From positions 1-28,931 of the IMG/VR virus record IMGVR_UViG_3300025896_000143: 28,931 nucleotides of DNA; one strand, 5' to 3'. Below, piece after piece: positions 1 to 27,085 of this stretch. The notes beneath the pieces are model-generated. The model was given only the letters and a program-made list of their open reading frames with translations. It was not told the DNA's origin and ran no database searches. Within the stretch, counting starts at the first letter, position 1. Each line of letters starts with the position of its first letter. This DNA comes from a virus. The position numbers were made by a program, and so were the translations under genes.

Positions 1-365
1 TGGCCAGCCAGAATAGTGCGGCACACAACATGAAAAGCATCGTCGGGAATTTCGGCGGCGGAAGTCCAGAAACGAGGGATAATGTCATGCAGCCCGCTTT
101 CCGTGATAGATTGGAAGAATAACTTCTTGTTGCTGGCAGGCCGGATAGCCGTGCAAGGATTAAGAAGCCGGTAACTGCCGGGCACAGAGGTCAGCAGCAT
201 TTCGGGGACATGGGCAGGATTGATGTTACCCCAGTTGACGATGACGTCTTCGGCTTGCTGGAAATAACTACTGCCCGACAGCTTTAGCACCTTCCCTCCA
301 AGGGCTTCGGCCAAAGCCTTAGCACTCTTGGAGCCAGTGCGGTAGGGAAGAACTCGGTATCGCAT
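1..365 (-). CDS. ATP-grasp ligase, N-terminal part (partial)
   Basis: About 121 residues are visible; the gene runs off the left edge, so the catalytic ATP-grasp core is missing. The product starts MRYRVLPYRTGSKSAKALAE and contains VIVNWGN, then a stretch with NPCTAIRPASNKKLFFQ. This resembles the pre-ATP-grasp region of phage ATP-grasp proteins, where a short tyrosine/arginine-rich start leads to an INWGN-type strand and then an N-K-x-x-F helix. ATP-grasp enzymes join a carboxylate to an amine through an acyl phosphate. The start has a strong ribosome site (GAGGAGGG) inside the end of the preceding amidoligase gene, one base separating that stop from this ATG, so the two are probably co-translated. 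The family call rests on motif recognition of the N-terminal part only; the neighbouring ligases support it. Confidence 0.68.
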   Translation of the reverse strand, partial: MRYRVLPYRTGSKSAKALAEALGGKVLKLSGSSYFQQAEDVIVNWGNINPAHVPEMLLTSVPGSYRLLNPCTAIRPASNKKLFFQSITESGLHDIIPRFWTSAAEIPDDAFHVVCRTILAG

Positions 366-366
366 A

Positions 367-1503
367 TCAGCCCTCCTCGTCGAAGTCGATATCGACGTCA
401 TAATCGGTGTCGTAGATTTCCTCGGGCTCTTCCGGTTCCTCGGTGTAGCCGGGGAAGGGGATGGCTTCCATCTGTTGAATCGGCATCAGGGTATTCGCCG
501 TAGTAGCCAGCGAAAAGAATTCGTTAGCCGATTGGTGAGACGTGGCCCACGCATCAGATTGCGCCACCATCCCGCCGAGTTTTTTCATGACCTTCCGTGG
601 GTCACGGCCAAAAGGGTCGTCGGCCAACTCCACAGGTTTGTAGAGTGACCAGTCTCGACAGTAACAGATATCCTGCGCCAGCCGGATTCCGTCGTAGAGC
701 GAGTCACGAATCTGATCTTCGGTCATCGCAATCCCTTGCCGGACAATCGCGGCGGTATCGCCGAGGATGGTGTCGAAGAAGGTGGCCGGTCCTTCCGCCG
801 AGAACATACCGCAGATATCGCGCGGATCGGAGAACTCTGCCGACAGATCGTAGAGACGGCGAAGAATACTCAACCAGTCCATAATCGCCTGTGGGTTCGT
901 GCAGCCACGCAGGGTGCGGATTTCGAGCGAGCCGAACTTCATCAGCGCATGGGCGTTCAAGCCGCCGTAGTGGAGGTTGTCACGGAGTTCGAGCTTGCCG
1001 TCGCTACGGATGAACCGCTTGATCTGAGAAACCAGAGCGGGAGCGTCCTTCGCCCGCAGACAGAAGAGATTGCCGACGCGGTGGTCGCCGCACCACTCGG
1101 TCAAGGCTTCCTCGACGATGAAGTAGAGAGCCATGAAAGCCGTCAGACGGTTGAGGTGAAACTTCTGGCAGTTGAGGTGGACGTGAACCGACGTCCGATT
1201 GGAGACGTCAAGGACGGTGCCGTATTTATCCATGATCTTCCAGAGGGCTTCGATGGCCTCGGGGACCTGATCGAACTTGATCGGCTTCGCCAGAACGTAT
1301 TCGGCGTTGTCCTGCCCCCGCAGAGAATGGTCCTGATGGAATTCCCAGAACGGCGCGAGGTTGGCGTTGTTCTTCTCGAACTTATTGCCCTCGCACTCGA
1401 TTTCGATACCGACCTCGCCTGCCGTCGGAATACGGCCCAGCAGAGTCTTGATATCGTAACCCGGCGAAGGGTTCTCGGTTGTCCGGAGAAACGGCGACTT
1501 CAT
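367..1503 (-). CDS. Amidoligase_2-type COOH-NH2 ligase
   Basis: 378 residues. The product resembles the putative amidoligase family (glutamine synthetase-like fold), which is predicted to form amide bonds using ATP. Visible motifs in order: VGIEIECEG at about 31-39 (metal-binding glutamates), a D-H-S-L segment at 58-61 followed by AEYVL, HVHLN at 107-111, a basic/aromatic middle, and FGSLEIRTLRG at about 190-200. These acidic, histidine and E-x-R motifs are the family's hallmark. The C-terminal 25 residues are very acidic. The ATG at 1503 is chosen because AAGGAGGTGCCC precedes it; a longer open frame to 1608 has no comparable site. It sits ten bases after a 259-aa gene of unknown role and one base before the ATP-grasp gene. 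The substrate is not deducible. Confidence 0.85.
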   Translation of the reverse strand: MKSPFLRTTENPSPGYDIKTLLGRIPTAGEVGIEIECEGNKFEKNNANLAPFWEFHQDHSLRGQDNAEYVLAKPIKFDQVPEAIEALWKIMDKYGTVLDVSNRTSVHVHLNCQKFHLNRLTAFMALYFIVEEALTEWCGDHRVGNLFCLRAKDAPALVSQIKRFIRSDGKLELRDNLHYGGLNAHALMKFGSLEIRTLRGCTNPQAIMDWLSILRRLYDLSAEFSDPRDICGMFSAEGPATFFDTILGDTAAIVRQGIAMTEDQIRDSLYDGIRLAQDICYCRDWSLYKPVELADDPFGRDPRKVMKKLGGMVAQSDAWATSHQSANEFFSLATTANTLMPIQQMEAIPFPGYTEEPEEPEEIYDTDYDVDIDFDEEG

Positions 1504-1513
1504 GGGCACCTCC

Positions 1514-2293
1514 TTATTCGACGACGATGTTAATGAAAATCCCGAGGTCCTGAACGGCTTCCCGGGTGTGGTAGTGGTTGACGTCGAGGATAACCTCGGT
1601 GGAGTCACGATGCGGCAGAACCCCGATAACGCTGTCCTTGTAGCCGAGGAACAACGTGTTGATCGGGCCTCGGATCAAGGCGAAATGCCGGTGGAAGGCG
1701 ACCCCGTCGTTCGTGACGGTCCTATCCTTGAGATTGGTCAGACATTCCTCGAACGAGGGATACTCGTTACGGATGGTAGCCGCGAGAGCCGGGGAAGTCA
1801 AGGCAATTCCACGCGGCCCGCCCATTATGGGCTGATCGTCCAGCCGAAGACGACTCTCGGCGATCATGTTGCTGGTCAAACCCTGCTCGGATTTGCGGGT
1901 GGGTTGACGTTCGAGATAGTAAACCCGACCGTTGTAGTTGCACATTCCCAACGGGAACGGGCGGAACTTGTTGAACTTCGGCGAGTTAATCATCTTCCGC
2001 ATGAGAGCGGACTTCGGATTCTTCTCCATCCATTCGTCCATCGCGGTGCCGAGCGACGGGTGATCGGACGGATACTGCTCGAACGGCGGACGGTTCGACG
2101 AGTGGACGATCATTTCATCCGACAGCGGTTCCATGTAAACACGGAAGATGCCGTCCGGGTTATGAGCGGTGATCGCCATGATGTAGTGCGGAAGACCGTA
2201 ATAGAGAACGACGGTTCCACGGAGCCGCATATTCGCTTCCTTGATATTCTCGTAGAAGTTGATATGCTCTTTCGTTTTGTCTTCGGTTACCAT
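1514..2293 (-). CDS. Unrecognised protein of the amidoligase cassette
   Basis: 259 residues, soluble, without signal peptide or membrane segment. I do not recognise a family. The N-terminal half is rich in H, P and aromatic residues; the middle carries YNGRVYYLERQP and a glycine-rich DQPIMGGPRGIAL stretch; the C-terminal half includes HRHFALIRGPINTLFLGYKD. The ATG at 2293 is supported by AAGGAGAGTGAC. The gene lies ten bases downstream of the COOH-NH2 ligase and ten bases upstream of the Amidoligase_2 gene, with each ribosome site inside the gap, so it is almost certainly made with them. It could be a substrate, acceptor or carrier, an accessory subunit, or an uncharacterised enzyme. Nothing in the sequence decides this. 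Confidence 0.88.
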   Translation of the reverse strand: MVTEDKTKEHINFYENIKEANMRLRGTVVLYYGLPHYIMAITAHNPDGIFRVYMEPLSDEMIVHSSNRPPFEQYPSDHPSLGTAMDEWMEKNPKSALMRKMINSPKFNKFRPFPLGMCNYNGRVYYLERQPTRKSEQGLTSNMIAESRLRLDDQPIMGGPRGIALTSPALAATIRNEYPSFEECLTNLKDRTVTNDGVAFHRHFALIRGPINTLFLGYKDSVIGVLPHRDSTEVILDVNHYHTREAVQDLGIFINIVVE

Positions 2294-2303
2294 GTCACTC
2301 TCC

Positions 2304-3158
2304 TTAATAGCGGGCGTAGCTGTGGTCGATGGTGGTCAGCGGGAACCGGAAGGCCCGGCTGAAACTGGCGGGGACGCTCGACTGATTGATGGCGTCAACC
2401 AGCGTCGAGTTGTAGCGCGAGACACGCTCCGGCAGATACGTGTTCCGCATATCGGCAATCGCCTGCACCATACGGTTCCAGACGGCGAGACGACGATCCC
2501 GGGTAGTCACCCAGAAGTTCGACAGGACACGGTATTCGACGCCGTAGTCCTTGATGCGACACGCCCCGGCCTTGCCGTATAGCGAGCGACGTTCGGTGTT
2601 CTCGTCCAGCTTGAGCGACCAGCCGCCGAGATACCAGTCAAGCTGCTTCACGAGGTCGCAGCAATTCAGCATATGCTGCGGATCGGACAGCGCGGCGTCC
2701 TTCGTCCACCCGAAGTGGATATGCCCCCCGGCACAGCGCAGAAACGGGTCGTGATCGAGCGACGGCGGAGGGTTCACGGTCTGCGTCCACGCGTTATAGT
2801 CCGGCGAACACCCAAGAGCGAGGGCTTCCTTCGACGACGCGAGGAAGACTTCTTCGGAGAACCGAACGGACGGAACCGCCTGCAACGTATGGCCCGCCGG
2901 GAGCATCGCTTCAAGCTGCCCCATCACCGCTTGGATATTGCGGTTCCAATCGCGGAAGTTGTCGACCGGGTCGATGTTGAACTCGGCAGCGAGGCCGTCA
3001 CGCTGGACAGCGCCGTATTCGACCTTGTGCGGTTCTTCCTTCGAGCCGGGAATCAGCCCTTCGGCGGAGACAGGCTGGCCGTCCGGGCCGAAGATGAACA
3101 GTTCGGGGTCGCACCCGAAGGTGAACCCGTCCATCGGGGTGAGTGCTTGGGTCGTCAT
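2304..3158 (-). CDS. phiEco32-like COOH-NH2 ligase, type 2
   Basis: 284 residues. It matches the phage phiEco32-like COOH.NH2 ligase family, distant relatives of glutamine synthetase and glutamate-cysteine ligase predicted to join an amine to a carboxylate with ATP. Motifs: FGCDPELFIF at 14-23, a second acidic motif VQRDGLAAEFNIDP at 51-64, AGGHIHFGW at 143-151, and YGVEYRVLSNFW at about 205-216. Residues E19, E59, H146, H148, E208 and R210 are the expected metal, ATP and substrate ligands. The ATG at 3158 follows AAAGGAGTAGC; in-frame sequence upstream is not used because it overlaps the preceding gene and reads through the 16-bp palindrome. The palindrome separates this start from the stop of the class II amidotransferase gene. 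Confidence 0.87.
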   Translation of the reverse strand: MTTQALTPMDGFTFGCDPELFIFGPDGQPVSAEGLIPGSKEEPHKVEYGAVQRDGLAAEFNIDPVDNFRDWNRNIQAVMGQLEAMLPAGHTLQAVPSVRFSEEVFLASSKEALALGCSPDYNAWTQTVNPPPSLDHDPFLRCAGGHIHFGWTKDAALSDPQHMLNCCDLVKQLDWYLGGWSLKLDENTERRSLYGKAGACRIKDYGVEYRVLSNFWVTTRDRRLAVWNRMVQAIADMRNTYLPERVSRYNSTLVDAINQSSVPASFSRAFRFPLTTIDHSYARY

Positions 3159-3170
3159 GCTACTCCTTTC

Positions 3171-3186
3171 TTGGCAAACTTGCCAA
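3171..3186. repeat. 16-bp palindrome, copy 1
   Basis: TTGGCAAACTTGCCAA, with 7-bp arms and a two-base centre. It fills the gap directly after the stop of the class II amidotransferase gene and ends 12 bases before the ATG of the COOH-NH2 ligase. Candidate operator or RNA hairpin; one of seven identical elements in the leftward arm. Confidence 0.9.
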
Positions 3187-4326
3187 TTACAACAGTTGAT
3201 CGAGGTTGGCGACGTGGACCCGGGAAGCCTGATTGTCACCGCCGGAGCAGGTGGGGCACAGGCAAATCTGGTCACGCTCGAAGATCGTCACGCCCTGATC
3301 GGCGAAGTCCACAGACTGCCCACACCATGAGCAGCCATACTTGGCGATTTCCTCGAACTGCTCGCGGGTCATCAGGCCCGCCATCGGGTCTTCCTCGCTG
3401 CCGAACAGGTGGACGATGTTGACGTTGTCAGTGGGTTGTTTGCCCAACGTCGTCGTGCCACGGGATTTCGTCGTCGTAGTCCGGGTATGTGAAGCCGCAT
3501 TGGTAGCGCGATTGAAAGGGTCGTAGGTAGTCGACACCGCTACCGGCTCCTTTCCTGCTAGCTTCTTGCACTTCGGTTTCGGGACGTCGTCCCCGCCCGC
3601 CGTCAGCTTGTCGAGGTCGAACTGATACCAGACGTCCTCTTCCGTCGAGAAGTAGCGGTGCGCCTTCTCGTTGTGGTAGAGCTTGTATTCCTTGCCGGTG
3701 CCGGTGGGCAGAGCCGTGGCGACGTCGATCATCGGCCATTCCGAAGCCCAGAACAGCTTCTTGAAATCGTCCGAATACGCATACCACATCGGGCGTTGAT
3801 CGTTACGCAGGAAGTTGAGCGTGTTGTTTTCACGATCCATCCATACGAGTGACCACGCCCCACCGGTCGTTCCGCCGCCGGATCGCAGCATCGGGATGAT
3901 TTCTTCGACACCGAACTTGGCGATACCGGCGATGATTGCGTGGCTGTCGGTGCCGAATTTCTCGTCGAGCAGCTTTTCGAGTTCGGCGTAAGACTGCGTG
4001 TCGAGCGTTCCGTTATGAGCGCCGACAATGTGATCGACTTCATACGGATGGGCGTTGACGTTGTTGACGACACCCTTGGTGGCAGCCCTGTTGTGACCCA
4101 GAAAAACCTTCGACTGGAAGGCATTCAAGGCCGTTTTGAACCGGGGCATATCGAACAAGTCGATGGGATTCAACGCCCCCTTGGAGATAACGGCTTCACC
4201 GTTCTTGCGGATGGCCGCAATACCAGTCGAGTCCGGGCCGCGAAGGTAGTCGATCAGCAAGAGGCGCTTCATCGTCGCCTCGTCCTTGAATTCCAGATTT
4301 CCGGCAATGCCGACGTGACCGCACAT
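3187..4326 (-). CDS. Class II (Ntn) glutamine amidotransferase with zinc-ribbon tail
   Basis: 379 residues. The product starts MCGHVGIAG, so removal of Met exposes the catalytic Cys of an N-terminal-nucleophile amidotransferase that takes ammonia from glutamine. Family motifs are present: RGPDSTG at 29-35, LGHNRAATKG at 76-85, NAHPY at 91-95, HNGTLD at 104-109 and DSHAI at 127-131. After the catalytic domain comes a threonine-rich linker (about 270-310) and a C-terminal cysteine cluster (C332, C335, C355, C357, C360) that looks like a zinc ribbon. No synthetase domain is fused, so the acceptor is probably handled by the separate ligases encoded nearby. The start is fixed by the catalytic Cys and by a TGATG overlap with the upstream class I enzyme. 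Confidence 0.88.
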   Translation of the reverse strand: MCGHVGIAGNLEFKDEATMKRLLLIDYLRGPDSTGIAAIRKNGEAVISKGALNPIDLFDMPRFKTALNAFQSKVFLGHNRAATKGVVNNVNAHPYEVDHIVGAHNGTLDTQSYAELEKLLDEKFGTDSHAIIAGIAKFGVEEIIPMLRSGGGTTGGAWSLVWMDRENNTLNFLRNDQRPMWYAYSDDFKKLFWASEWPMIDVATALPTGTGKEYKLYHNEKAHRYFSTEEDVWYQFDLDKLTAGGDDVPKPKCKKLAGKEPVAVSTTYDPFNRATNAASHTRTTTTKSRGTTTLGKQPTDNVNIVHLFGSEEDPMAGLMTREQFEEIAKYGCSWCGQSVDFADQGVTIFERDQICLCPTCSGGDNQASRVHVANLDQLL

Positions 4327-5249
4327 CAGTTTGTTCCCTTCTTGGTCTGGGTGATAGTGAGTGGCTTGGTGATAGATTTCTTGCGCTTCGCCCAGCCAGC
4401 ATTGCGTTGCGCGACTAGATCGGGTTTGATCCGATACTGGGAATCCTGCCAGTGCAGATCGGGGTTGCAGACGATGTAGCTCTGGATCAAGTCGAGAGTC
4501 CACTTGGCGAACTGGTTGTAGCCACGGTATTCGGGGTGGCCTTGGATGCCGAGGAAGCACGAGTCCCGGAAGAAGAACGCTTCCACGTCCTGCCGCTTGC
4601 CGACGTCGCAGTCCATGTCGTTCAACCAGCGAGCCGTCGACTTGTTGCAGACAGCGATGACTTCCATCCCGATTTCCGGGTTGGCGATGACGGCCTGATG
4701 ATGGACGGACGAGATACGGGGGATAGCCGTCTTGTTGACGACGTCATAAATCCCGTGATCGCCGTAGTGCTCATCGACGTCTTGGAACAACTTGCCGCCC
4801 ATGAGGACGTTGCCGAGTTGCGCCCCGCGACAAATGCCGAGCATCGGGATACCGAGTTCCATGCACTTGTCGAAGATAGCAATATCCTCCTTGTCTCGTT
4901 CGACATGAACGCGAGTCGTATCGTGCGGCTTCTCGCCGTAGAGCCGAGGATCGACGTCCGGACCGCCGGTCAGCACGACGAGGTCGGCGATTTCGACGGT
5001 AGTTGCCCGCTTGCATCGAGCACGAGCAAAGAGTTCCGCGAACTGCCGTTCTTCATACGGCGGACCGGCAACGAAAACATCGAGCCAGAGTTCGGGATAG
5101 TCGAGCAGATGGTCACGCAGAACCGACACCTTCGGCGGAGCGCGATTGCCCTGCGTCAGAGTGATCTTCGACTTGTCGATTGTCAGGCCGAGGCACTGGG
5201 CCGTAATCGTTGAGTTCTGCTGTGCGAGAGCAGAGTTAGCGGCGGCCAT
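4326..5249 (-). CDS. Class I glutamine amidotransferase / gamma-glutamyl hydrolase-like (C26)
   Basis: 307 residues. This is a flavodoxin-like class I amidotransferase fold: VVLTGGPDVDPRLYGE at about 91-106, nucleophile elbow GICRGAQLGN with Cys140, SSVHHQAV at about 180-187 and GIQGHPEY giving His238 and Glu240 of the triad. The GGPDVDP and SVHHQ signatures fit the peptidase C26 branch, which cleaves gamma-glutamyl bonds (as PuuD does), better than a synthetase subunit. It may trim gamma-glutamyl intermediates or release ammonia for the ligases. The C-terminal 40 residues are basic. The ATG at 5249 is chosen for its GGAGGT site; the longer frame to 5312 would overlap the preceding small gene extensively. 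It overlaps that gene by 14 bases and the next by one. Confidence 0.87.
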   Translation of the reverse strand: MAAANSALAQQNSTITAQCLGLTIDKSKITLTQGNRAPPKVSVLRDHLLDYPELWLDVFVAGPPYEERQFAELFARARCKRATTVEIADLVVLTGGPDVDPRLYGEKPHDTTRVHVERDKEDIAIFDKCMELGIPMLGICRGAQLGNVLMGGKLFQDVDEHYGDHGIYDVVNKTAIPRISSVHHQAVIANPEIGMEVIAVCNKSTARWLNDMDCDVGKRQDVEAFFFRDSCFLGIQGHPEYRGYNQFAKWTLDLIQSYIVCNPDLHWQDSQYRIKPDLVAQRNAGWAKRKKSITKPLTITQTKKGTN

Positions 5250-5442
5250 GCGACACCTCCTTTCCTGTTTCTTCCGTGCTGCCTTGGTGCTTCGGCGTGA
5301 GCGTCGGCCCATGATCGGACTCCTTCACTATGTCTTGAATGACGTCGATGGCAATCTTATACGCCTCGCTCTTGGCCCCATACCAATGAAGGCGGGCAGC
5401 CCGTTCAAGCCGTATCTTGCCGTAATATTTCGAGATACCCAT
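5236..5442 (-). CDS. Small basic protein, first gene of the amidoligase cassette
   Basis: 68 residues, beginning MGISKYYGKIRLERAARLHW. No family recognised. It is basic, probably mostly helical in its first 45 residues, with a polar tail ending EVSHGRR. The ATG at 5442 follows AAAAAGGATCATC; an upstream in-frame TTG would place the palindrome inside the coding region and lacks a ribosome site. The end overlaps the class I amidotransferase start by 14 bases, consistent with coupled translation. The leader upstream contains a palindrome copy and a stable minus-strand hairpin. Confidence 0.7.
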   Translation of the reverse strand: MGISKYYGKIRLERAARLHWYGAKSEAYKIAIDVIQDIVKESDHGPTLTPKHQGSTEETGKEVSHGRR

Positions 5443-5453
5443 GATGATCCTTT

Positions 5454-5469
5454 TTGGCAAGTTTGCCAA
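5454..5469. repeat. 16-bp palindrome, copy 2
   Basis: TTGGCAAGTTTGCCAA on the plus strand. It lies 11 bases upstream of the ATG of the first gene of the amidoligase cassette, just before its ribosome site. Confidence 0.9.
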
Positions 5470-5844: not shown

Positions 5845-6597
5845 TCAGGCGGCCTTCGCACCACGCAGAGCGGTCTGCTCGACGTGATTCTTGTCGGCCT
5901 TCTGGGCGGATTCCCGCTGTTTGGCGGTCTGCTGCGGATAGCGCGAACGCAGGCCAGCATAGACCACCGGCGCACCGGCTGCTTCGACTTCGGCGCGGGT
6001 CAGCAGCTTGGTCGGACCGGTCGCGTCCCAGCGCGCCAACTGCTCGGCGCTCATCTTCTGAGCGAGAGCCGCCGTGTCCTGCGATTCGTTGAACAGCGCC
6101 GACGGTTCGGTGAAGTCCGATTTCAGATCGGTCCACGCCTTCGGCGGCAGGAACGGATTGTCCATCGCGCCCTTGCCGATGTTCCGGAACAGACCGAAGA
6201 TGTAGTTCGGATTACCGCCCTTCATGTTCGAGGCCGGGTCGCCGCCGGTATAGACCGAATTGTCCGTGGCCCGCAGGAACTCGAAGCCTTCGTCCCGCAG
6301 AATCTTGAGCCACTTCGCGCCGACGCCGCCCGAAATCTGTCTGGCAGTCAGGATGGCGAGGAAGACGTGGTTCGGCATATCGCGGTTCGAGAACGTGCCG
6401 ATGCGGATGCGCTGCCGGAAGATATCGGCGTAGGTGGGACCGGCGAAGCAATCGCCCATCGGGGTGCCGCTGTCGCCCGACACGATCTGGATGGACGACT
6501 TCTCGTCAGGATCGACCCCGAAGTTCTGGATGATGCAGCAAGCGCAGCAGCCCCAGTAGGTTCCCGGAATCGAGGAACCGAAACGCAGAAATTCCAT
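5845..6597 (-). CDS. Unrecognised 250-aa phage protein, cysteine-rich start
   Basis: 250 residues, soluble. The start contains WGCCACCIIQNF with four cysteines at 17-21, followed by a G-D-S-G-rich stretch, then DMPNHVFLAIL and ILRDEGFEFLRATDNSVYTG, which look like the core of an alpha/beta domain. The C-terminal 60 residues are alanine-, glutamine- and lysine-rich and probably flexible or helical. I have no family assignment; the cysteine quartet could bind metal. The ATG at 6597 follows AAGGAGAATGAC. The stop of the preceding 91-aa gene is one base upstream of this ATG, so the two form one unit. The hairpin at 5787-5805 follows the gene. Confidence 0.85.
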   Translation of the reverse strand: MEFLRFGSSIPGTYWGCCACCIIQNFGVDPDEKSSIQIVSGDSGTPMGDCFAGPTYADIFRQRIRIGTFSNRDMPNHVFLAILTARQISGGVGAKWLKILRDEGFEFLRATDNSVYTGGDPASNMKGGNPNYIFGLFRNIGKGAMDNPFLPPKAWTDLKSDFTEPSALFNESQDTAALAQKMSAEQLARWDATGPTKLLTRAEVEAAGAPVVYAGLRSRYPQQTAKQRESAQKADKNHVEQTALRGAKAA

Positions 6598-8019: not shown

Positions 8020-8430
8020 TTACTGCCCGTAGGCGTAGTGGTAGACGGTGACGTCACAACCCGAGTTCGAGTTGCGGAACGTCGTGACAGGGACGAACCC
8101 CATCTTTTCGAGAATCGGCCCCCAGACGTCGATCTGGCGCACCGGGTTGTAGCGGCTCTTGTCGAAGTTGTATTTCCCCGACGTCAGAACGGCCTCGATC
8201 AACCCCTTCGGGCGTTCGGCGATGGTGAGTTCGATCAGCCGTGCCGCGCGTTCTTCGTGCGTCTGTTCGGGGTGGCTATACCTCTTCCCGATATCCCGGC
8301 ACTTGTCGTAGTCGTCAGGGAAATCATACTTGACGGCCTCGTGTTTCCCGATCTTCATGTCCGGGCCGTCGTCGAATCCCCAGAGGGTGCTGATCCCGCA
8401 GCAATGCCCGCCGTGCGAAAACATGAACAT
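8020..8430 (-). CDS. Unrecognised 136-aa protein
   Basis: 136 residues from the ATG at 8430, preceded by AGGAGAACACTG and overlapping the stop of the cyclotransferase-like gene as TGATG. It begins MFMFSHGGHCCGISTLWGF, with His and paired Cys near the N-terminus, and ends in CDVTVYHYAYGQ. The segment TTFRNSNSGCDVTVY resembles the end of small phage-specific domains, but I cannot assign a family. Coupling to the cyclotransferase-like gene makes a shared process possible. Confidence 0.8.
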   Translation of the reverse strand: MFMFSHGGHCCGISTLWGFDDGPDMKIGKHEAVKYDFPDDYDKCRDIGKRYSHPEQTHEERAARLIELTIAERPKGLIEAVLTSGKYNFDKSRYNPVRQIDVWGPILEKMGFVPVTTFRNSNSGCDVTVYHYAYGQ

Positions 8431-8813
8431 CAGTGTTCTCCTGTCAGCCAATCACCGGATTCGACAGGCGTGGCTGCGTAGCCCGTCGAACCCATGTATT
8501 CGTAGACCCACGCATCGCGCCCGCTTTCGGTCTTGACGACCTTGCGACAGAACAGGTGGGGATGGCCCTCGTAGTGGTCGAGACGCGCCGTGATAGATTC
8601 GTCTTCGATCAGGAAGCACTCGCCAACGACAGCGGGTTTGTCCGCGTCGAAGGTTTCGCCTTCCAGTTTCACCCCGGGAAACCACCCGAGAGAGAACAGG
8701 TTGCCGCTGACGCGATCCGGGCCAGCGAACAACGCGGCACCAGTGCGAGTAAGATCAGCACTCTGGCCAAGCCGAAGCGTTCCGTAGACAAAGAGGAAAT
8801 CTCCCTTCTTCAT
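8430..8813 (-). CDS. Gamma-glutamylcyclotransferase-like (GGCT/AIG2 fold)
   Basis: 127 residues. FLFVYGTLRLGQ at 6-17 is the YGTLR signature of the gamma-glutamylcyclotransferase/AIG2 superfamily, and ARLDHYEGHPHLFCR supplies the conserved acidic residue of the active site. VGECFLI and AWVYEYMG complete the usual small beta-barrel pattern. These enzymes release a gamma-glutamyl or side-chain-linked residue as 5-oxoproline. That chemistry matches the ligase and amidotransferase cassette at 1-5249, from which it is separated by about 3.2 kb in the same direction. The ATG at 8813 is chosen for GAAGGAG seven bases away. Family assignment is firm; substrate is inferred. Confidence 0.85.
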   Translation of the reverse strand: MKKGDFLFVYGTLRLGQSADLTRTGAALFAGPDRVSGNLFSLGWFPGVKLEGETFDADKPAVVGECFLIEDESITARLDHYEGHPHLFCRKVVKTESGRDAWVYEYMGSTGYAATPVESGDWLTGEH

Positions 8814-8841
8814 TTCAATCTCCTTCAATTACGACCAGCAT

Positions 8842-13278: not shown

Positions 13279-13305
13279 ATGCGTATAAGGTTGGGAAAGT
13301 TTCCT

Positions 13306-13367
13306 CCGGAAACGCTGGGAGATTTTCGTCTAAGAGTGGCGATAGCCACGACTAAGCGACGAAGGAG
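13306..13367 (+). other. Structured leader with SD-abutting hairpin, copy 1
   Basis: After the promoter the leader can form a GTTTCC-TCC-GGAAAC hairpin, then an outer stem TTCGTC (13325-13330) with GACGAA (13358-13363) enclosing GTGGC-GATA-GCCAC, a GNRA-type tetraloop. The 3' arm touches the GGAG ribosome site (13364-13367) of the HNH-like gene. The same TTCGTC/GACGAAGGAG layout recurs before TerS and the portal gene. Confidence 0.6.
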
Positions 13368-13374
13368 TGAGATT

Positions 13375-13656
13375 TTGAAGAAGAAAACCACGCTTCCGAA
13401 CACGAAAGGCCGTCAGGCTGCCCAACGGAAGTATAACTCCAAGCCTGAACAGATCAAACGACGCTCCGCCCGCAACAAGGCTCGCCGGATTATGGAGAAG
13501 GCAGGCCGAGTTCGTAAGGGAGACGGGAAGGACGTCGACCATAAGAACTACAATCCCAAGGATAATTCGGCTAAGAACCTCCGGGTGACGTCGGAATCCG
13601 CAAATCGTAGTAGGAACAAGGTTCGTCGTTCGACGAAGGAGAACAAACGTGGCTAA
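13375..13656 (+). CDS. Small HNH-like protein
   Basis: 93 residues from a TTG at 13375, preceded by GAAGGAG eight bases upstream. An ATG at 13279 lies before the predicted transcription start and is therefore rejected. The N-terminal half is very basic. The C-terminal half has KDVDHKNYNPKDNSAKNLRV followed by SESANRSRN, the D-H ... N ... N-L-R-V pattern of HNH_3-type endonucleases, as found beside terminase genes. In several phages an HNH protein works with the terminase in DNA cleavage. The first metal-binding half of a full HNH domain is short here, so activity is uncertain. It overlaps the terminase small subunit start by eight bases. Confidence 0.65.
   Translation: MKKKTTLPNTKGRQAAQRKYNSKPEQIKRRSARNKARRIMEKAGRVRKGDGKDVDHKNYNPKDNSAKNLRVTSESANRSRNKVRRSTKENKRG
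13622..13641 (+). other. SD-abutting hairpin, copy 2
   Basis: TTCGTCG-TT-CGACGAA (13622-13637), whose 3' arm is immediately followed by GGAG (13638-13641). It lies within the last codons of the HNH-like gene and precedes the GTG start of the terminase small subunit. Confidence 0.6.
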
Positions 13657-14206
13657 AAGCAAGGCGACCGGAAAGGCCCGGCACCCGCATGATGCCAGCC
13701 GACCGGAGAGCCAAGCCGTTCTGAATGCCCTCGCTTCGGGGGATATCGACCAGCTTGAGCTTGCGCTTTCACCTAGGCAGCGGGCGTTCTGCCATGAATA
13801 CATCGTAGACTTCAACGGGACCGCTGCTGCGATCCGTGCTGGCTACTCCACGAACTATCCAGACCGACAGGCTCACAACCTTCTCAAGAATAAGGGTGTC
13901 GCCACTTACATCGACTTCCTCACTCGCAGTAAGGAAGCCCAGATCGTGTCTGTGAACCCGGATTACGTCATCCAACAGGTGACGGCAATCATCACCAAGG
14001 AAGGCACCCGGGACGGCGATAAGCTCCGGGCACTCGAACTCCTAGCTCGTCACCTCGGTATGTTCATCGACCGGACTGAAATCTCCGGTAAGGACGGTGA
14101 GGCGATCAAGTATCAGGAAATCGAAACCGAAGCCAATGACTTCACTCGGAAGATCATGGATATCGCTTCGCGTAAGAAGCCTGACCTGAAAGTAGTAGGC
14201 GATTAA
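13649..14206 (+). CDS. terS: Terminase small subunit
   Basis: 185 residues from a GTG at 13649. LSPRQRAFCHEYIVDFNGTA followed by AAIRAGYS is the signature of the Terminase_2 family: a helix-turn-helix that recognises the packaging site on phage DNA. Later parts (SVNPDYVIQQVTAIITKEG, LRALELLARHLGMF) are the oligomerisation helices, and the C-terminus is charged. The product forms a ring that delivers DNA to the large subunit. Its TAA overlaps the terL ATG as TAATG. The GTG start is chosen for GGAG seven bases upstream, within copy 2 of the TTCGTC/GACGAA hairpin. Confidence 0.88.
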   Translation: MAKSKATGKARHPHDASRPESQAVLNALASGDIDQLELALSPRQRAFCHEYIVDFNGTAAAIRAGYSTNYPDRQAHNLLKNKGVATYIDFLTRSKEAQIVSVNPDYVIQQVTAIITKEGTRDGDKLRALELLARHLGMFIDRTEISGKDGEAIKYQEIETEANDFTRKIMDIASRKKPDLKVVGD

Positions 14207-15642
14207 TGGAAAACCTCTCCCCTGCACAACGGTTCGCGGAACTCTCGCCCGAAGAGCAGGAAGAGTTCCTGAATAGTCTCTCCCCAGACGTCCGGGCACA
14301 GTTGAAATATCACTGGCCGTTCTGGGCCCGACCGAACCAGCTACAGCCCGAAGTAGGGAATGGCGGTGGTCCGTGGTCGACTTGGTTGATTCTAGCTGGG
14401 CGTGGGTTCGGCAAGACTCGGACGGGTGCCGAGACTATTCGAGATTGGGTGTGTGGCAAGACCCCTCTTGCCCCCGGCAAGTGCTCACGCATCGCTCTTG
14501 TCGCTGAAACCGGTGCTGACGCCCGAGACGTCATGGTTCTTGGTGAATCAGGGCTTCTGGCAGTCCACCCGAAGGATTTCAGGCCCACCTATATTTCGTC
14601 TAAGCGTGTCGTTGAGTGGCCGAATGGAGCACAGGCATGGCTGTATAACGCAGTCGAACCTGACCAGCTTCGTGGTCCGCAGCATGACGGTGCTTGGTGC
14701 GACGAAATGGCTAAGTGGCGCTATATGCAGGACACTTGGGACCAACTCCAATTCGGTATGCGTCTCGGGAGCGATCCTCGCACTATCGTCACAACCACGC
14801 CTCGTCCTCTTCCTCTCATCCGGAAGCTGCTCAAGGACCCGATGGTTGCTGTCACTCGTGGGGCGACCCGCGATAACGCACAGAACATGGCTGCTAGCTT
14901 CATCCGCGAGATTGAAGACAAGTATGCCGGGACTCGACTGGGTCGTCAGGAACTTGAAGGTGAAATCCTCGATGATATCCCCGGAGCCCTCTGGAACCGA
15001 GAAACTCTCGATGCCTGCCGCGTATCGGAAGCACCTGTTGACCTTGAACGAGTTATCGTTGCAGTCGATCCTGCAACCAGTTCAGAGGAAGGTAGTGACG
15101 AGACTGGGATCGTGGTTGTCGGCCTCGCCCGAGACAAAGACGGATATGCTCGTGGCTACGTTCTTGAGGATGGTTCAATAAAAGGTTCTCCGGAAGAGTG
15201 GGCTCGTCGGGCCGTCATGCTCTACCGGAAATGGGAGGCTGACAAGATCGTCGCCGAGAAGAACCAAGGCGGAGAAATGGTCAGTGCAGTTCTCAAAGCT
15301 CAAGACCGTTCGGTCCCTGTTACGCTTGTTCACGCCTCTCGCGGCAAGATTGTCCGAGCCGAACCTGTGTCTGCTCTCTACGAACAGAAGCGGGTTCACC
15401 ACGTCGGAATCTTTGACAAGCTTGAGGACCAGATGTGCCTATTCTCGGTCGATAACTTCCGCACCCCTGCTATGGGGTCGCCTGACCGAGTCGACGCTCT
15501 CGTCTGGGGGCTAACCGAAATCTTTGACAAAATCACGTCACGTCGCCGTTCCACTAATACTCCGACCTCGGACAAGCCGAAGAAGGCTTACCACGGTCAC
15601 GTCGGATTGGAACACGTCGAGACTGGTTGGATGGCAGGATAA
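14206..15642 (+). CDS. terL: Terminase large subunit
   Basis: 478 residues. ATPase and nuclease of the packaging motor. Walker A is LAGRGFGKTRTG (about 63-74), Walker B ends in GAWCDEMAKW with D166-E167, and the coupling motif IVTTTPRP follows near 194-201. The nuclease domain begins at VIVAVDPATSSEE with D288 and ends with PDRVDALVWGL near 430-445, supplying the metal-binding acids. Length is typical for a P22/T7-sized terminase. It is translationally coupled to terS. The gene ends one base before the hairpin that precedes the portal ribosome site. Confidence 0.95.
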   Translation: MENLSPAQRFAELSPEEQEEFLNSLSPDVRAQLKYHWPFWARPNQLQPEVGNGGGPWSTWLILAGRGFGKTRTGAETIRDWVCGKTPLAPGKCSRIALVAETGADARDVMVLGESGLLAVHPKDFRPTYISSKRVVEWPNGAQAWLYNAVEPDQLRGPQHDGAWCDEMAKWRYMQDTWDQLQFGMRLGSDPRTIVTTTPRPLPLIRKLLKDPMVAVTRGATRDNAQNMAASFIREIEDKYAGTRLGRQELEGEILDDIPGALWNRETLDACRVSEAPVDLERVIVAVDPATSSEEGSDETGIVVVGLARDKDGYARGYVLEDGSIKGSPEEWARRAVMLYRKWEADKIVAEKNQGGEMVSAVLKAQDRSVPVTLVHASRGKIVRAEPVSALYEQKRVHHVGIFDKLEDQMCLFSVDNFRTPAMGSPDRVDALVWGLTEIFDKITSRRRSTNTPTSDKPKKAYHGHVGLEHVETGWMAG

Positions 15643-15662
15643 TTCGTCTTTCGACGAAGGAG
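15643..15662 (+). other. SD-abutting hairpin, copy 3
   Basis: TTCGTC-TTTC-GACGAA (15643-15658) followed directly by GGAG (15659-15662), then the portal ATG at 15668. The stem sequence is the same as in copies 1 and 2, with a different loop. Confidence 0.65.
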
Positions 15663-15667
15663 AAAAC

Positions 15668-17794
15668 ATGAAGGACGAAAAAGAACCAACCGGGCTTCCC
15701 GAAGAATACGAAGACGCCCGTGGTCTGGACGTCATTCAATACGGGTCTGACAAGATGGACGATGAGCCGGAGAAGGGATACGTCCCCGAAGGCTATGAAA
15801 CCGTCGAAGACTACTTGAAGTGCCTGCGTGAAGATTACGAGTCCGACCTCCTAGCTGACGAAGACAACCGTCGAGAAGGACTGGACGACAAGAAGTTTGC
15901 TGCAGGTGAGCAGTGGGACCCGCAAGTCCTCGAACACCGCAACGGCCTTCCGTGTCTCACCATCAACACGATTCCGCAGTTCACCGCACAGCTTGTGGGT
16001 GACTGGCGGCAGTCGAGGAATGCGATCAAGGTCCTTCCCGGCGAAAACGGGGATACCGAAATTGCCTCGGTTCGCGGGGACCTGATCCGTTCCATCGAGT
16101 ATAAGTCCCGGGCTGACCGCGTCTACGATGCGGCATTCGAGTCGCAAGTCACGTGCGGCGACGGTGCCTTCCGTATCGCCGTGGAATATGCCCGGGACGA
16201 CGTCTTCGATCAGGACGTATTCGTTCGTCCTATCGACGATGCCTTCTCGGTGGTCTGGGATCGTATGTCAATCGACCCTACTGGCCGTGACGCTCGTCAC
16301 TGCTTCGTAGAAGACGCGATTCCTCGGAAAGAGTTTGAACGCAAGTTCAAGGATGCTAACCCTGCTGAAATGCCCCGCTCGGATATGCGGGATATGCGTC
16401 AGTCGGGATGGCTCGATGACAAGACTGTCCGTGTTGTAGAACACTGGCGAATGATTGAACGCGACCGACTGCTCGGCCTCTTCGGAGACGGCTCGATTCA
16501 CGTTCTGGGTGAGACGGCTGATGAGCTTGTTGCAAAGCTCGGTCCGCCCCTCAAGACCCGCATCGCCCCGTGCCTCTACGCACAGATGCACCTGACTACC
16601 GGTTGGAAAATCCTAGCCGGTCCTTACGAATACAAGCTTAACCGTCTCCCGATCATTCGTATGTCGGGCCGCGTTACTAACGTCGGTGGTAAGCGTGTTC
16701 GTTACGGTCTTGTGAGGTTCATCAAGGACCCCGCCCGTCTGCGTAACTTCTGGCGTTCGGTGGCTGCCGAACAGCTTGGCTACGCTCCGAAGGCGCAGTG
16801 GATGGCTACCGAAGGTGCCGTCGAAGGTCGTGAGGACCTGATCCGCAAGGCTCACCTCACCCGCGACCCGCTGTTGATCTTCAACGACGAGGCTGTCTTC
16901 GGGCAGAACGTAATCCGTGTTGAGCCTCCGCAGATGCAGATGGCTCTGCTGAACGAAGCCAACATCAACACCCAAGATATGAAGGACGTCACGGGTATCC
17001 ATGACGCTTCGCTTGGGATTAAGAGTAATGAAACCTCCGGCAAGGCGATCATGGCCCGGCAGAAGGAAGGGGATATCGCATCCCTCACCTTCTACGACAA
17101 CGGGAATGCTTCGCTGCTCGAAGCCGGGGACGTCATCAACCAGCTTATCCCGCAGATTTACGACGGGACCCGTATCGTCCGGTTGATTGGTGAAGACGAA
17201 GCCCCTAAGCTCGTCAAGATCAACGACCCTTACGATATGTCGTCTCCGAACCTCGCCACCGGGAACTACGACGTAGCTCTCTCGACTGGTGCCAGCTACA
17301 CGACCCGTCGGGCCGAGGCTGCCGAGGCAATGATGCAGGCTATTCAGGTCTGGCCGAATCTCATTCAGGTCGCTGGCGATATCGTCGCCAAGGCACAGGA
17401 TTGGCCCGGGGCTGACAAGCTGGCTGAACGACTCAAGAAGACTATTCCTCCGCAGTTCCTTGATCCCGAAGATCAGGCCGAAGGCGGGCAGGTTATGCCC
17501 TCGCAGGAGGAAATCCAGCAGGCTATGCAGCGTATGCAGCAGCTTGAGTTGGAGAATCAAGCACTACAGCAGGAACTCAAGGACAAACACGAAAAGCTTG
17601 AAATTGATCGGTATAACGCTGAAACCCAGCGTATCCGGGCGCTCTCTGACCATCAGGTTGACGCCAACCAGATGGAAATGGACGCGATCCAAAACATTCT
17701 CGACGAAAGTCAACGCCAGTACGAACGCGATATGGCCGAACAGGAAGTCGAGGCCCAGAATGCCAGCAGTGGTGAAGACTCGGAAGAGTCCTAA
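15668..17794 (+). CDS. Portal protein, P22 type
   Basis: 708 residues, close to the 725 of the P22 portal. It forms the dodecameric ring through which DNA enters and leaves the head. The family pattern is clear: RREGLDDKKFAAGEQWDP, then LPCLTINTIPQFTAQLVGDW and RQSRNAIKVLP near the N-terminus. The central region includes KDPARLRNFWRSVAAEQLGY and ASLGIKSNETSGKAIMARQK, the clip/stem segments. The last 130 residues are a glutamine- and glutamate-rich coiled coil (EEIQQAMQRMQQLELENQAL), like the helical barrel of P22. The ATG at 15668 follows GGAGAAAAC; open sequence upstream belongs to terL in another frame. Confidence 0.93.
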   Translation: MKDEKEPTGLPEEYEDARGLDVIQYGSDKMDDEPEKGYVPEGYETVEDYLKCLREDYESDLLADEDNRREGLDDKKFAAGEQWDPQVLEHRNGLPCLTINTIPQFTAQLVGDWRQSRNAIKVLPGENGDTEIASVRGDLIRSIEYKSRADRVYDAAFESQVTCGDGAFRIAVEYARDDVFDQDVFVRPIDDAFSVVWDRMSIDPTGRDARHCFVEDAIPRKEFERKFKDANPAEMPRSDMRDMRQSGWLDDKTVRVVEHWRMIERDRLLGLFGDGSIHVLGETADELVAKLGPPLKTRIAPCLYAQMHLTTGWKILAGPYEYKLNRLPIIRMSGRVTNVGGKRVRYGLVRFIKDPARLRNFWRSVAAEQLGYAPKAQWMATEGAVEGREDLIRKAHLTRDPLLIFNDEAVFGQNVIRVEPPQMQMALLNEANINTQDMKDVTGIHDASLGIKSNETSGKAIMARQKEGDIASLTFYDNGNASLLEAGDVINQLIPQIYDGTRIVRLIGEDEAPKLVKINDPYDMSSPNLATGNYDVALSTGASYTTRRAEAAEAMMQAIQVWPNLIQVAGDIVAKAQDWPGADKLAERLKKTIPPQFLDPEDQAEGGQVMPSQEEIQQAMQRMQQLELENQALQQELKDKHEKLEIDRYNAETQRIRALSDHQVDANQMEMDAIQNILDESQRQYERDMAEQEVEAQNASSGEDSEES

Positions 17795-17900
17795 AAACTT
17801 ACTCCGGTCGTCGTAAGGCGACTTCGTGTCCCCGGGGAAAGCCTAGCCTCGGGGGTCACACGCAATAAATAGGCAATCGGTTGAAGGACCGCAAAACTAC
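17795..17900 (+). other. Intergenic leader with GC-rich hairpin
   Basis: 106 bases between portal and scaffold genes. A stem pairs GTGT-CCCCG (17826-17834) with CGGGG...ACAC (17850-17861), with a small bulge. A shorter GTCG/CGAC stem lies just upstream. No U-run follows, so it is more likely a processing or stability element than a terminator. The scaffold ribosome site, GAAGGA, is about 12 bases before its ATG. Confidence 0.45.
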
Positions 17901-18869
17901 ATGGTTGATAATACCACCGCAGACCTCGATTTCGGCACCGTAATGTCGGACGAAGAACTCGCTGCCTCGCTAGAAGCAGAGAAGACTACTCCCACGGAAG
18001 AACCGAAGCAGGAAAGCACCCCCGAGGACGATCCCCTCGCACCTGAACAGATCGAAGAAACTCCGAACGAAGACGACGAGGAAGTCGATATCCCCGCTGA
18101 CGAGCAGGAAGAATCGAACGCCCTCAAGTTGAAGCCGAAGAAGAAGACTGCACAGGAACGGATTGATGAACTGACTGCAGCCCGTCGGGCCGCTGAACGT
18201 GAGGCCGAAGACCTCCGTCGGCAGCTTGCCGAACGTAGTCAGCCGAAAGAAGTAGAGACTAAGGAAGCCGTTGAAGCTCCGGCAGGTCCGACCCCGGACG
18301 ACGTCGATGCAAACGGTGAAGCCAAATACCCGCTTGGCGAGTTCGACCCCGGTTTCATCCGGGACCTGACTCGTTTCACGCTGCAGCAAGAGCGTGAGGC
18401 CCTTCGGGCACAAGAAGCTGCCGAACGTCAGGCGGAGCAGGAACGCTCTGCTGTTGAGGAAATCCAGCGAGGTTGGCAGGAACGTCTTGCCGTCGCTGAA
18501 CAGACTCTTCCCGACATTCAGGAAAAGGGTATGGCTCTGGAATCGACCTTTGAAGGTCTTGACCCGAGCTACGGCACTTACCTTGCCCAGACAATCATGT
18601 CGATGGAGCATGGCCCCGAAGTCCTTTACTACCTTTCGGACCACATCGAGGAAGCCAAGGCGCTTGTCGCTGGCGGCCCCCTCAAGGCAACTCTCGGCCT
18701 TGGTGAACTGAACTCCATGTTCAAGTCGCGTAAGACCGAGCCAGCAGTCAAGGTAACTAAGGCTCCTGAACCTCCGGTGGACCGTGCTCGCGGCACCAAC
18801 GGTCGGTTCGATGTAGCTGACGATACCGACGACTTGGATGCCTTTGCCAAGAAGTTCTACGGAAAGTAA
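17901..18869 (+). CDS. Scaffolding protein
   Basis: 322 residues, lying between portal and coat genes where P22-like phages encode the scaffold (gp8). The first 90 residues are highly acidic (TEEPKQESTPEDDPLAPEQI). Next comes a long coiled coil (ERIDELTAARRAAEREAEDL and QQEREALRAQEAAERQAEQE), and the C-terminus is a short basic-to-mixed helix (DTDDLDAFAKKFYGK), in the place where scaffolds contact coat. It would co-assemble with coat and leave the prohead before packaging. No protease motif is seen. Identification is by position, charge and coiled-coil content rather than by a sequence signature. Confidence 0.82.
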   Translation: MVDNTTADLDFGTVMSDEELAASLEAEKTTPTEEPKQESTPEDDPLAPEQIEETPNEDDEEVDIPADEQEESNALKLKPKKKTAQERIDELTAARRAAEREAEDLRRQLAERSQPKEVETKEAVEAPAGPTPDDVDANGEAKYPLGEFDPGFIRDLTRFTLQQEREALRAQEAAERQAEQERSAVEEIQRGWQERLAVAEQTLPDIQEKGMALESTFEGLDPSYGTYLAQTIMSMEHGPEVLYYLSDHIEEAKALVAGGPLKATLGLGELNSMFKSRKTEPAVKVTKAPEPPVDRARGTNGRFDVADDTDDLDAFAKKFYGK

Positions 18870-18912
18870 AGGAACATTGGCAGAGGCGGTAGACTAAGGA
18901 CTAAAATCAACT

Positions 18913-20205
18913 ATGGCTACTGTTACTGTCACCCAGCAGAAGCTGGTGCTTAACACGTTTGCGACCATCTTTCAGAATAACCTGATTGCCTCCGACCTCG
19001 TTAGCTGGAAGCAGCACGATGCCGAAATGGACGACCGAAACGGTCTGCAGGTTATCGAGCAGGTTGGTCCCCGTTACACTGTGACTGAAACGACCGATGG
19101 TGTCAAGGACCTGTCGGGCGGCGTTCAGGACAGCGTGTTCGGTTCGGAAATCTTCAAGGTGAACAAGACCTTCGGCGTCAGCATGGGCTGGGGCGACTTC
19201 GTGAAGGTCCGCGATATCGGCTCGGCCCGCGAAAGCGAAGCCCTCAAGGCCGTGGCGCAGCAGCTTGCCGAGAAGATCGACGCTTACGTGCTGTCGACTG
19301 CGATTCTCGCGTCGAACAACTGGGTCGGGACTGCCGGTAATAACGTTGCTGATCTTGGCGACGTCGCTACCGCTTACACCCGTCTCAAGGAAGAAGGCGT
19401 GGACGACAACGACCTCCGCATGGTGCTGTCGTATGCCGACCGCCAGGCGCTTGCCGAAACCCTCGTGGCGTATCCGGCCACCGACAGTCTGTCGACCGGT
19501 GCGTTCCGTCGTGGCTTTGAAGGTGAAATCTACGGTGTTCCCACCGTGTTCACCCAGCAGCTTCCGGCGCTCACGATGGGCTCTCGCGCTGCTTCGGGTG
19601 CCGCTGCCATCAACGGTGGTGCGCAGAATGTGAACTATACGGCGGTTGCTGCTTCGACGGCTCCGGGTTACTTCATGACCCAGACCATCGCCATCGACGG
19701 CCTGACTGGTTCGCAGACGATCAAGGATGGTGAAGTCTTCACTATCGCGGGCGTGTATGCTTGGGACAACCGTGCTGGTGTTACCACCGGTCGCCTGCAG
19801 CAGTTCCGCGTTGTGGGGGATGCCACCGCTACCACGGGTGCGATTGCGGCTCTCCGCATCTTCCCGGCACTGATCGTTCAGGGCACCAGCGACGTCAACA
19901 CCGCTCACGCGACCGTTGACTCGGCACCGGCTGATAACGCCGCGATCACGTTCATCGGCACCGCTTCGACTGCTTATCGTCCTCGTGCGATCATCCAGAA
20001 GAATGCGATTGTCGTGGATACGGCGCAGCTTGTCCTGCCCGCGACCGGCACTGCCCGTCGTATGGGTCTGACGAAGGTCCCGCTTTCGGTTCGTATGTGG
20101 CAGCACAGCGATTTCGATACCGGCGCTCACAGCGTTCGGTTTGACGTCGCCCTCACTGCTAACGTCCGCGAGCGTCGGCGCATCGTCCGCCTCAACGGCT
20201 CGTAA
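18913..20205 (+). CDS. Major capsid protein, P22 coat type
   Basis: 430 residues, the same length as P22 coat gp5. The start MATVTVTQQKLVLNTFATIF leads to an HK97-type N-arm. The E-loop/spine region includes TYTVTETTDGVKDLSGGVQD-like sequence and NKTFGVSMGWGDFVKVRD, then AVAQQLAEKIDAYVLSTAI as the long spine helix. Residues about 215-345 form an inserted beta-rich domain comparable to the P22 I-domain, and the end MGLTKVPLSVRMWQHSDFDT is characteristic of the family. It forms the icosahedral shell. Codons use more GCG/TCG/GTG than the flanking tail genes, typical of a highly expressed gene. An intrinsic terminator follows. Confidence 0.88.
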   Translation: MATVTVTQQKLVLNTFATIFQNNLIASDLVSWKQHDAEMDDRNGLQVIEQVGPRYTVTETTDGVKDLSGGVQDSVFGSEIFKVNKTFGVSMGWGDFVKVRDIGSARESEALKAVAQQLAEKIDAYVLSTAILASNNWVGTAGNNVADLGDVATAYTRLKEEGVDDNDLRMVLSYADRQALAETLVAYPATDSLSTGAFRRGFEGEIYGVPTVFTQQLPALTMGSRAASGAAAINGGAQNVNYTAVAASTAPGYFMTQTIAIDGLTGSQTIKDGEVFTIAGVYAWDNRAGVTTGRLQQFRVVGDATATTGAIAALRIFPALIVQGTSDVNTAHATVDSAPADNAAITFIGTASTAYRPRAIIQKNAIVVDTAQLVLPATGTARRMGLTKVPLSVRMWQHSDFDTGAHSVRFDVALTANVRERRRIVRLNGS

Positions 20206-20213
20206 TGATCGTC

Positions 20214-20228
20214 GTGACCTAGGGTCAC
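20214..20228 (+). other. Hairpin after capsid gene
   Basis: GTGACC-TAG-GGTCAC, a perfect 6-bp stem eight bases after the capsid stop. The same stem arms occur at 11281-11295 in the other arm. It precedes the terminator. Confidence 0.5.
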
Positions 20229-20235
20229 TGAATTT

Positions 20236-20273
20236 GGGGGAGACTGGGAGTTCTCGGGCTCCCCCTTTTTCTT
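20236..20273 (+). terminator. Intrinsic terminator after capsid gene
   Basis: GGGGGAG (20236-20242) pairs with CTCCCCC (20259-20265), an inner GAG-TT-CTC adds pairs, and TTTTTCTTT follows. It lies between coat and the gp4-like gene and probably reduces read-through, setting a higher level of coat than of tail mRNA. Confidence 0.8.
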
Positions 20274-20281
20274 TGGAGTAA

Positions 20282-22305: not shown

Positions 22306-22314
22306 GGAAAACAT

Positions 22315-23361: not shown

Positions 23362-23372
23362 GCGAGTAATAG

Positions 23373-25096: not shown

Positions 25097-25099
25097 CAG

Positions 25100-25513: not shown

Positions 25514-25514
25514 T

Positions 25515-27052: not shown

Positions 27053-27058
27053 GCAGAC

Positions 27059-27079
27059 TAGCGTCAGCTAGGATAAGGA
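27059..27079 (+). other. Hairpin before large ejection gene
   Basis: CTAGC-GTCA-GCTAG, a 5-bp stem just upstream of the AAGGA ribosome site of the gene at 27086. It is a different sequence from the TTCGTC/GACGAA hairpins but a similar position. Confidence 0.4.
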
Positions 27080-27085
27080 AACAAC

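Follow-up and report, generated by a model that had tools for sequence, protein, structure and literature searches.

The stretch of DNA analysed here (the window) is a 28,931-base IMG/VR virus record, IMGVR_UViG_3300025896_000143, which derives from an uncultured phage in an environmental sample. The left part of the window is coded leftward and the right part rightward. A leftward run extending from position 5249 to the contig end encodes a class I glutamine amidotransferase (GATase)-type enzyme, a class II GATase, a COOH-NH2 ligase, a conserved protein referred to here as G3, an Amidoligase_2 enzyme and an ATP-grasp ligase (Table 1). This run is a further copy of an already described 'peptidoglycan modification cassette', found in this phage alongside a P22-like virion module. 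An initial annotation, made from the sequence alone, had named five enzymes coded in one direction; Pfam and PHROGs matches place all five on the minus strand. The four complete named enzymes exceed their Pfam cut-offs, and all six cassette genes have a PHROGs match. The class I stop and the class II start overlap as TGATG, and at each remaining junction an AAGGAG/GGAGG-like ribosome site lies just 5' of the next ATG. The interval of 1-5442 that had been assigned to the cassette was right as to the six-gene run, but it included a small open reading frame (ORF, 5236-5442) that is not core and left out a gamma-glutamyl cyclotransferase (8430-8828) that belongs to the cassette set. The enzyme inventory thus comprises three families of ATP-dependent carboxylate-amine ligase with two folds, two glutaminase-type enzymes and the cyclotransferase, together with G3.

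Catalytic residues were aligned using 18-23 members per enzyme family, drawn from diverse phages. The class I enzyme matched the Peptidase_C26/GATase models with 87.3 and 33.6 bits, and its nearest solved relatives in the PDB are Lin1909 and PuuD. The Cys140/His238/Glu240 triad named in the initial annotation was exact; C140, H183-H184-Q185, H238 and E240 were invariant in 18 sequences. A class I GATase akin to that of the window is found in the gut phage cr108_1 (MT774385 / NC_055878, 83036-83608). The class II enzyme scored 48.5 bits against GATase_6 (cut-off 27), and a profile search of the PDB matched its first ~156 positions with PurF/GlmS; no synthetase domain was recognised in the protein. 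Its nucleophile had also been placed correctly at Cys2, which is present in most of 21 sequences; in a few rows the mechanically assigned ORF start falls on an internal Met. R80, N105-G106 and D127 were invariant, and a C-terminal Cys-rich, zinc-ribbon-like region was nearly so. A second, divergent class II amidotransferase follows the ATP-grasp gene in Rhizobium phage RHph_N3_19 (locus L010, 13654-14790).

The COOH-NH2 ligase, one of the two glutamine-synthetase (GS)-like ligases, matched PF14395 (COOH-NH2_lig) with 27.9 bits (cut-off 25), and D17-P18-E19, E59, R141, H146/H148, R201, K203, E208 and R210 were invariant in 23 sequences. Amidoligase_2 matched PF12224 with 28.3 bits (cut-off 22), with E34/E36/E38, H107/H109, R142, E194 and R196 invariant in 20 sequences. 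Neither GS-like ligase had a significant sequence match in the PDB. The ATP-grasp fragment in the window aligns to positions 36-163 of the 708 of the phrog_2599 profile; the catalytic half is beyond the contig end, and the ATP and metal residues are outside the window. Full-length relatives retain the Arg/Lys and the Asp-Glu-Asn metal-ligand positions (D213, E227, N229). No informative fused domain was recognised in the extra-long ligases and amidotransferases of SE131, Slicky01, TacPo2 and others.

The affinities of the ATP-grasp family bear on the possibility that the enzyme set attaches amino acids to proteins of the host or the virion, much as RimK modifies ribosomal protein S6, and that G3 determines which protein is tagged. 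The family profile matches S6/alpha-glutamate ligases in the PDB; in Pfam, 24 of 40 relatives matched RimK and, at E 0.01, 13 matched R2K_2 and 5 matched R2K_3; phage R2K.2 enzymes have been predicted to modify host proteins (Burroughs 2015, PMC4431377). However, R2K scores in single-protein scans were at most 23.2 bits, under the curated cut-offs of about 26 bits, the catalytic half of the window's own protein being absent; no target is known; and two more GS-like ligases and two glutaminases exceed what a single tag would need. We regard protein tagging as rather improbable.

The cassette genes are conserved together. Profile searches of 119 loci found via the COOH-NH2 ligase, which are phylogenetically non-independent and yield counts, not probabilities, recovered the class II enzyme in 115, Amidoligase_2 in 112, G3 and ATP-grasp in 111 each, the class I enzyme in 99 and the cyclotransferase in 56. 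All six families were present at 93 loci, 80 of which kept the window's exact order, and the grouping proposed in the initial annotation was thus borne out. Median gaps between cassette genes ranged from -4 to 12 bases. Loci without a given family were mostly cut by a contig end or rearranged (for instance LUZ24-like and Grimontviridae phages). Comparison of the window with two relatives (45-63% protein identity) pointed to purifying selection on every window gene that was tested, the divergence being 0.49-0.64 of codons at third positions and 0.23-0.46 at the first two. Given this third-position excess, the tested genes encode maintained proteins. Conservation, catalytic residues and codon-position divergence together rule out chance or an annotation artefact. 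The predicted amide-linked product, or modification of a peptide or protein, is likewise supported by the conserved catalytic residues and the gene order.

A gene for the COOH-NH2 ligase occurs in 317 of 50,697 phage records and on at least 579 IMG/VR contigs. A scan of cellular genomes recovered 16 loci among 84,980 species, all in contigs of metagenome-assembled genomes (MAGs); several of these contigs are phage-sized, and the MAG loci are probably phage. The ligase is essentially phage-restricted. This distribution is unlike that of a host-derived gene and disfavours a host-derived auxiliary function. Genes of nitrogen or glutathione metabolism, feeding the host or the phage with amino acids, have nevertheless to be considered: the cassette families are shared by phage ZRK32, for which its authors suggested nitrogen metabolism (PMC10945688). 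Glutathione synthesis, for its part, needs fewer than six such enzymes, and on both counts we judge auxiliary metabolism very unlikely. In close relatives of the window (L099/L113) a primase-helicase and a DNA polymerase come after the cassette, as they do in TC6, CVT22 and Asterion; the window ends inside the cassette, so the position of the replication genes was read in relatives only. This early location beside replication genes would suit amide-forming enzymes that decorate phage DNA bases, but in those annotated phages that were viewed the surroundings of the cassette held no recognisable base-hypermodification gene, although no systematic search was made, and such a role seems highly improbable.

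The combination with P22-type virion genes, which had been singled out in the initial annotation, is real but less remarkable than it appeared, since the cassette accompanies several unrelated virion types (Zobellviridae, Bruynoghevirus, Grimontviridae and other phages). The virion module of the window comprises TerS, TerL, portal, scaffold, coat, head closure and DNA ejection genes (phrog_51, 979, 156, 8865, 283, 578, 598). The portal had 176 matches; the 25 listed were all P22-like or environmental phages, and none of these was recognisable as Zobellviridae. Relatives of the coat protein were present on 80 viral contigs that were fetched, some of them possibly incomplete; of the 34 searched whole, 9 carried the Amidoligase_2 gene. 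Several carriers were 40-48 kb long, and other contigs of that size were without the gene. The cassette is thus an optional module in this coat-protein group.

G3, which lies between the two GS-like ligases, was found at the 119 loci as steadily as the cassette enzymes. It had no Pfam match above threshold and was recognised by its PHROGs profile (E 1e-19). Its AlphaFold model was of high confidence (predicted local distance difference test, pLDDT, 91.8; predicted template modelling score, pTM, 0.86). Foldseek comparison of the model with the PDB gave no significant match (best E 0.2), the sub-significant ones being small HEX-1 and eIF5A/EF-P beta-barrel pieces. Against viral models there were ten significant matches, all uncharacterised, and those with names came from tailed phages; one belongs to Salinivibrio phage CW02, whose cassette contains G3. 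Likenesses near the G3 N-terminus to SspH (best E 4e-4, sub-threshold) and to the EF-P N-domain (E 0.07) were treated as unproven. The invariant columns were few (G116, R129 and G138), and the aligned family members diverged too far to allow a pattern scan. These few columns do not suggest a catalytic set, and we infer that G3 may serve the ligases through binding, as a scaffold or as an acceptor. What is new here is that G3 is a core component of the cassette, with no fold match detected outside phages. If G3 were a dedicated acceptor or carrier for the three ligases, the cassette might constitute a phage-only pathway for a novel amide-linked molecule or protein tag, as opposed to a change in the wall, in which the hydrolase and the cyclotransferase would release the product from G3; we think this unlikely.

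The name and the hypothesis of a 'peptidoglycan modification cassette' exist in the literature (PMC5498523, PMC6256558, PMC11945000) and were overlooked in the initial annotation. Duhaime et al. (2017) described a seven-gene cassette in RIO1-like podoviruses, listed RIO-1, phiEco32, 7-11, PA11, tf, MR299-2, LUZ24, PaP3 and CW02 as carriers, and, citing Hardies 2013 and Iyer, proposed that it prevents superinfection (PMC5498523); PMC10580990 credits that proposal to Iyer 2009. The same hypothesis was put forward for a LUZ24-like phage, with wall weakening for lysis as the alternative (PMC11945000), and the HMO-2011-type phage phiM6 was reported to have the cassette (PMC6256558). The cassette of phiEco32 itself was not seen in the 50 kb that we fetched. 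In PSA-HP1, ORFs 40-47 resemble the window set, with a COOH-NH2 (gamma-glutamyl) amidoligase, a second amidoligase, an ATP-grasp protein, a glutamine amidotransferase and a gamma-glutamyl cyclotransferase, and the PSA-HP1/RIO1-like cassette is sited among early replication genes. During PSA-HP1 infection the equivalent genes were 'expressed immediately' (PMC7082346). The window differs from the RIO1-like arrangement in its P22-like virion module, in having a class I C26 enzyme besides the class II enzyme, in its cyclotransferase, which is 3 kb off beside two Cys-Cys proteins, and in its ATP-grasp gene, which is cut by the contig end.

Among the closest known arrangements are those of Zobellviridae clusters (Pseudomonas TC6/PA11, Citrobacter CVT22, Salinivibrio CW02) and of Klebsiella phage Asterion, which have the six families in the window's exact order. 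Their cassette proteins are about 20-45% identical to those of the window, their virion genes differ, and TC6 and CVT22 have an extra upstream protein (phrog_27195/34254) that was not recognised in the window. The LUZ24-like Bruynoghevirus cluster (Ab22) and ZRK32 share the window's families with a divergent G3, in the order COOH-NH2 ligase, G3, Amidoligase_2, class II, ATP-grasp and cyclotransferase; no class I enzyme was detected in them. ZRK32, whose cassette follows the Ab22 order, is a 'chronic' Planctomycetes phage (OP650935, locus L015, 6576-12373), and its record is unannotated and marked UNVERIFIED.

Table 1. Cassette genes, neighbouring genes and other elements of the window
Feature	Position	Strand	Evidence or remark
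ATP-grasp ligase, N-terminal 121 residues only, cut by contig end	3..365	-	phrog_2599 E 8e-18
Amidoligase_2, GS-like carboxylate-amine ligase	367..1503	-	PF12224 above cut-off, invariant residues
G3, conserved, no assigned function	1514..2293	-	phrog_11055
phiEco32-type COOH-NH2 ligase	2304..3158	-	PF14395, phrog_3815 E 2e-74
16-bp palindrome, between class II stop and COOH-NH2 ligase ribosome site	3171..3186		TTGGCAAGTTTGCCAA on minus strand, one of seven copies
Class II (N-terminal nucleophile, Ntn; Cys2) GATase domain, C-terminal Cys-rich region	3187..4326	-	GATase_6
Class I GATase / Peptidase_C26, PuuD-like gamma-glutamyl hydrolase type	4326..5249	-	PF07722 E 1.7e-24
Small ORF upstream of cassette	5236..5442	-	No homologue in 22 related loci, not core
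16-bp palindrome, just upstream of whole cassette	5454..5469		One of seven copies
X250, Cys-Cys motif protein	5845..6597	-	Family linked to cassette in 31/119 loci
Smaller X250 paralogue, HGG-CCGI motif	8020..8451	-	Same profile family as X250
Gamma-glutamyl cyclotransferase, GGACT/AIG2-like	8430..8828	-	PF06094 E 2.5e-17
P22-like packaging/virion module, divergent from cassette region	13279..28931	+	PHROGs matches, P22-like portal relatives

The cyclotransferase gene lies 3.2 kb upstream of the cassette and, in the lineage of the window, is followed by two related Cys-Cys proteins, X250 and its paralogue, a unit present at about 20 loci. Shared by both proteins are a W...L..GF...NS pattern and, close to the N-terminus, a CC(G/A) motif that is conserved. 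The X250 model (pLDDT 88) had no significant match in the PDB, giving partial, weak GNAT-like pieces only. The small ORF at the head of the cassette was dropped as a cassette gene, since a phmmer search against the ORFs of 22 related loci found it in the window only. Seven near-identical 16-bp palindromes, TTGGCAAGTTTGCCAA, begin at positions 3171, 5454, 6918, 9505, 10300, 11247 and 12238 of the window (15 strand hits against 0.18 expected), all of them in the leftward half. Several lie directly 5' of a ribosome site, and the sequence can fold as a 6-bp hairpin of about -7 kcal/mol. Some relatives have palindrome variants of their own (for example TGGCAAGTAGTGCCA in L107 and TGGCATACTGTGCCA in L023). 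The palindromes are candidate operators or RNA elements of early genes. Genes of NAD-salvage type, for a ribose-phosphate pyrophosphokinase and a nicotin(amid)ate phosphoribosyltransferase, lie a few kb before the cassette in Salmonella phage SE131 (L012, 968-3531) and Pseudoalteromonas phage Slicky01 (L009, 2009-4290).

Class II GATases release ammonia from glutamine, GS-like and ATP-grasp ligases use ATP to activate a carboxylate that is then joined to an amine, and C26 and GGACT-type enzymes cut gamma-glutamyl amides; the peptide precursors of the peptidoglycan wall contain gamma-linked glutamate. A gamma-glutamyl theme runs through the window set, in which a PuuD-like C26 enzyme and a cyclotransferase accompany two GS-like ligases. 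Judging from the enzyme families, it is quite probable that the cassette combines ammonia release, successive amide bond formation and gamma-glutamyl removal. The class II enzyme would release ammonia from glutamine, the GS-like and ATP-grasp ligases would add glutamate, glutamine or ammonia through one amide bond after another, and the PuuD-like class I enzyme and the cyclotransferase would strip gamma-glutamyl groups, as trimming or deprotection. The nearest solved relatives agree with this scheme: PurF/GlmS for the class II enzyme, Lin1909 and PuuD for the class I enzyme and S6-glutamate ligase for ATP-grasp.

Such chemistry could also serve a small gamma-glutamyl metabolite, such as a gamma-glutamyl polyamine or an antibiotic-like amide, made or broken down with protection and removal in the style of the Puu pathway or of butirosin. 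The Puu gamma-glutamyl-putrescine pathway shares the logic of a GS-fold ligase and a C26 hydrolase, the class I enzyme counts PuuD among its closest relatives of solved structure, and a ligase, a hydrolase and a cyclotransferase fit a protect-build-deprotect scheme. The window set differs from Puu in that no oxidase or dehydrogenase was seen and two glutaminase-type enzymes and an ATP-grasp protein are present; the resemblance is in the way of working only, not one of membership. Moreover, the annotated loci that were viewed showed no oxidase, decarboxylase, carrier protein or exporter accompanying the cassette, and a small metabolite is in our view a doubtful product.

Set against these alternatives, the prospects are about even that the cassette serves, early in infection, to build and trim amide bonds of gamma-glutamyl type, for which the peptides of the host wall are the leading candidate target. 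More tentatively, and with somewhat less confidence, the substrates may be the cytoplasmic precursors of host peptidoglycan stem peptides. These would be altered early in infection, and the host wall would thus have changed by the time another phage could inject. What favours wall peptide precursors is their gamma-linked glutamate, the early expression of the cassette and the precedent of MurT/GatD, a GATase-ligase pair that amidates wall glutamate in bacteria (PMC3267633). The window set resembles MurT/GatD as a class I GATase with an ATP-dependent ligase, and differs in that a C26/PuuD-type enzyme stands in place of GatD and no Mur ligase was recognised. Given the immediate expression in PSA-HP1, superinfection exclusion fits better than late wall weakening. 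Several points weigh against a wall target: no Mur ligase was identified among the cassette ligases; phages infecting very different hosts share the set, so that a wall-specific target is not forced; the ATP-grasp gene is cut by the contig end, so that the window holds only part of the cassette of this phage; and the literature searched, mostly open, contained no biochemical or genetic test of the cassette product.

The system itself is already known, and its function is the question that is now sharply testable. A set of six to seven genes kept by many unrelated phage lineages and near-absent from cells must pay during infection. With G3 as a core, cassette-specific part and the exact gene set in hand, the long-standing wall-modification hypothesis becomes directly testable by gene deletion.

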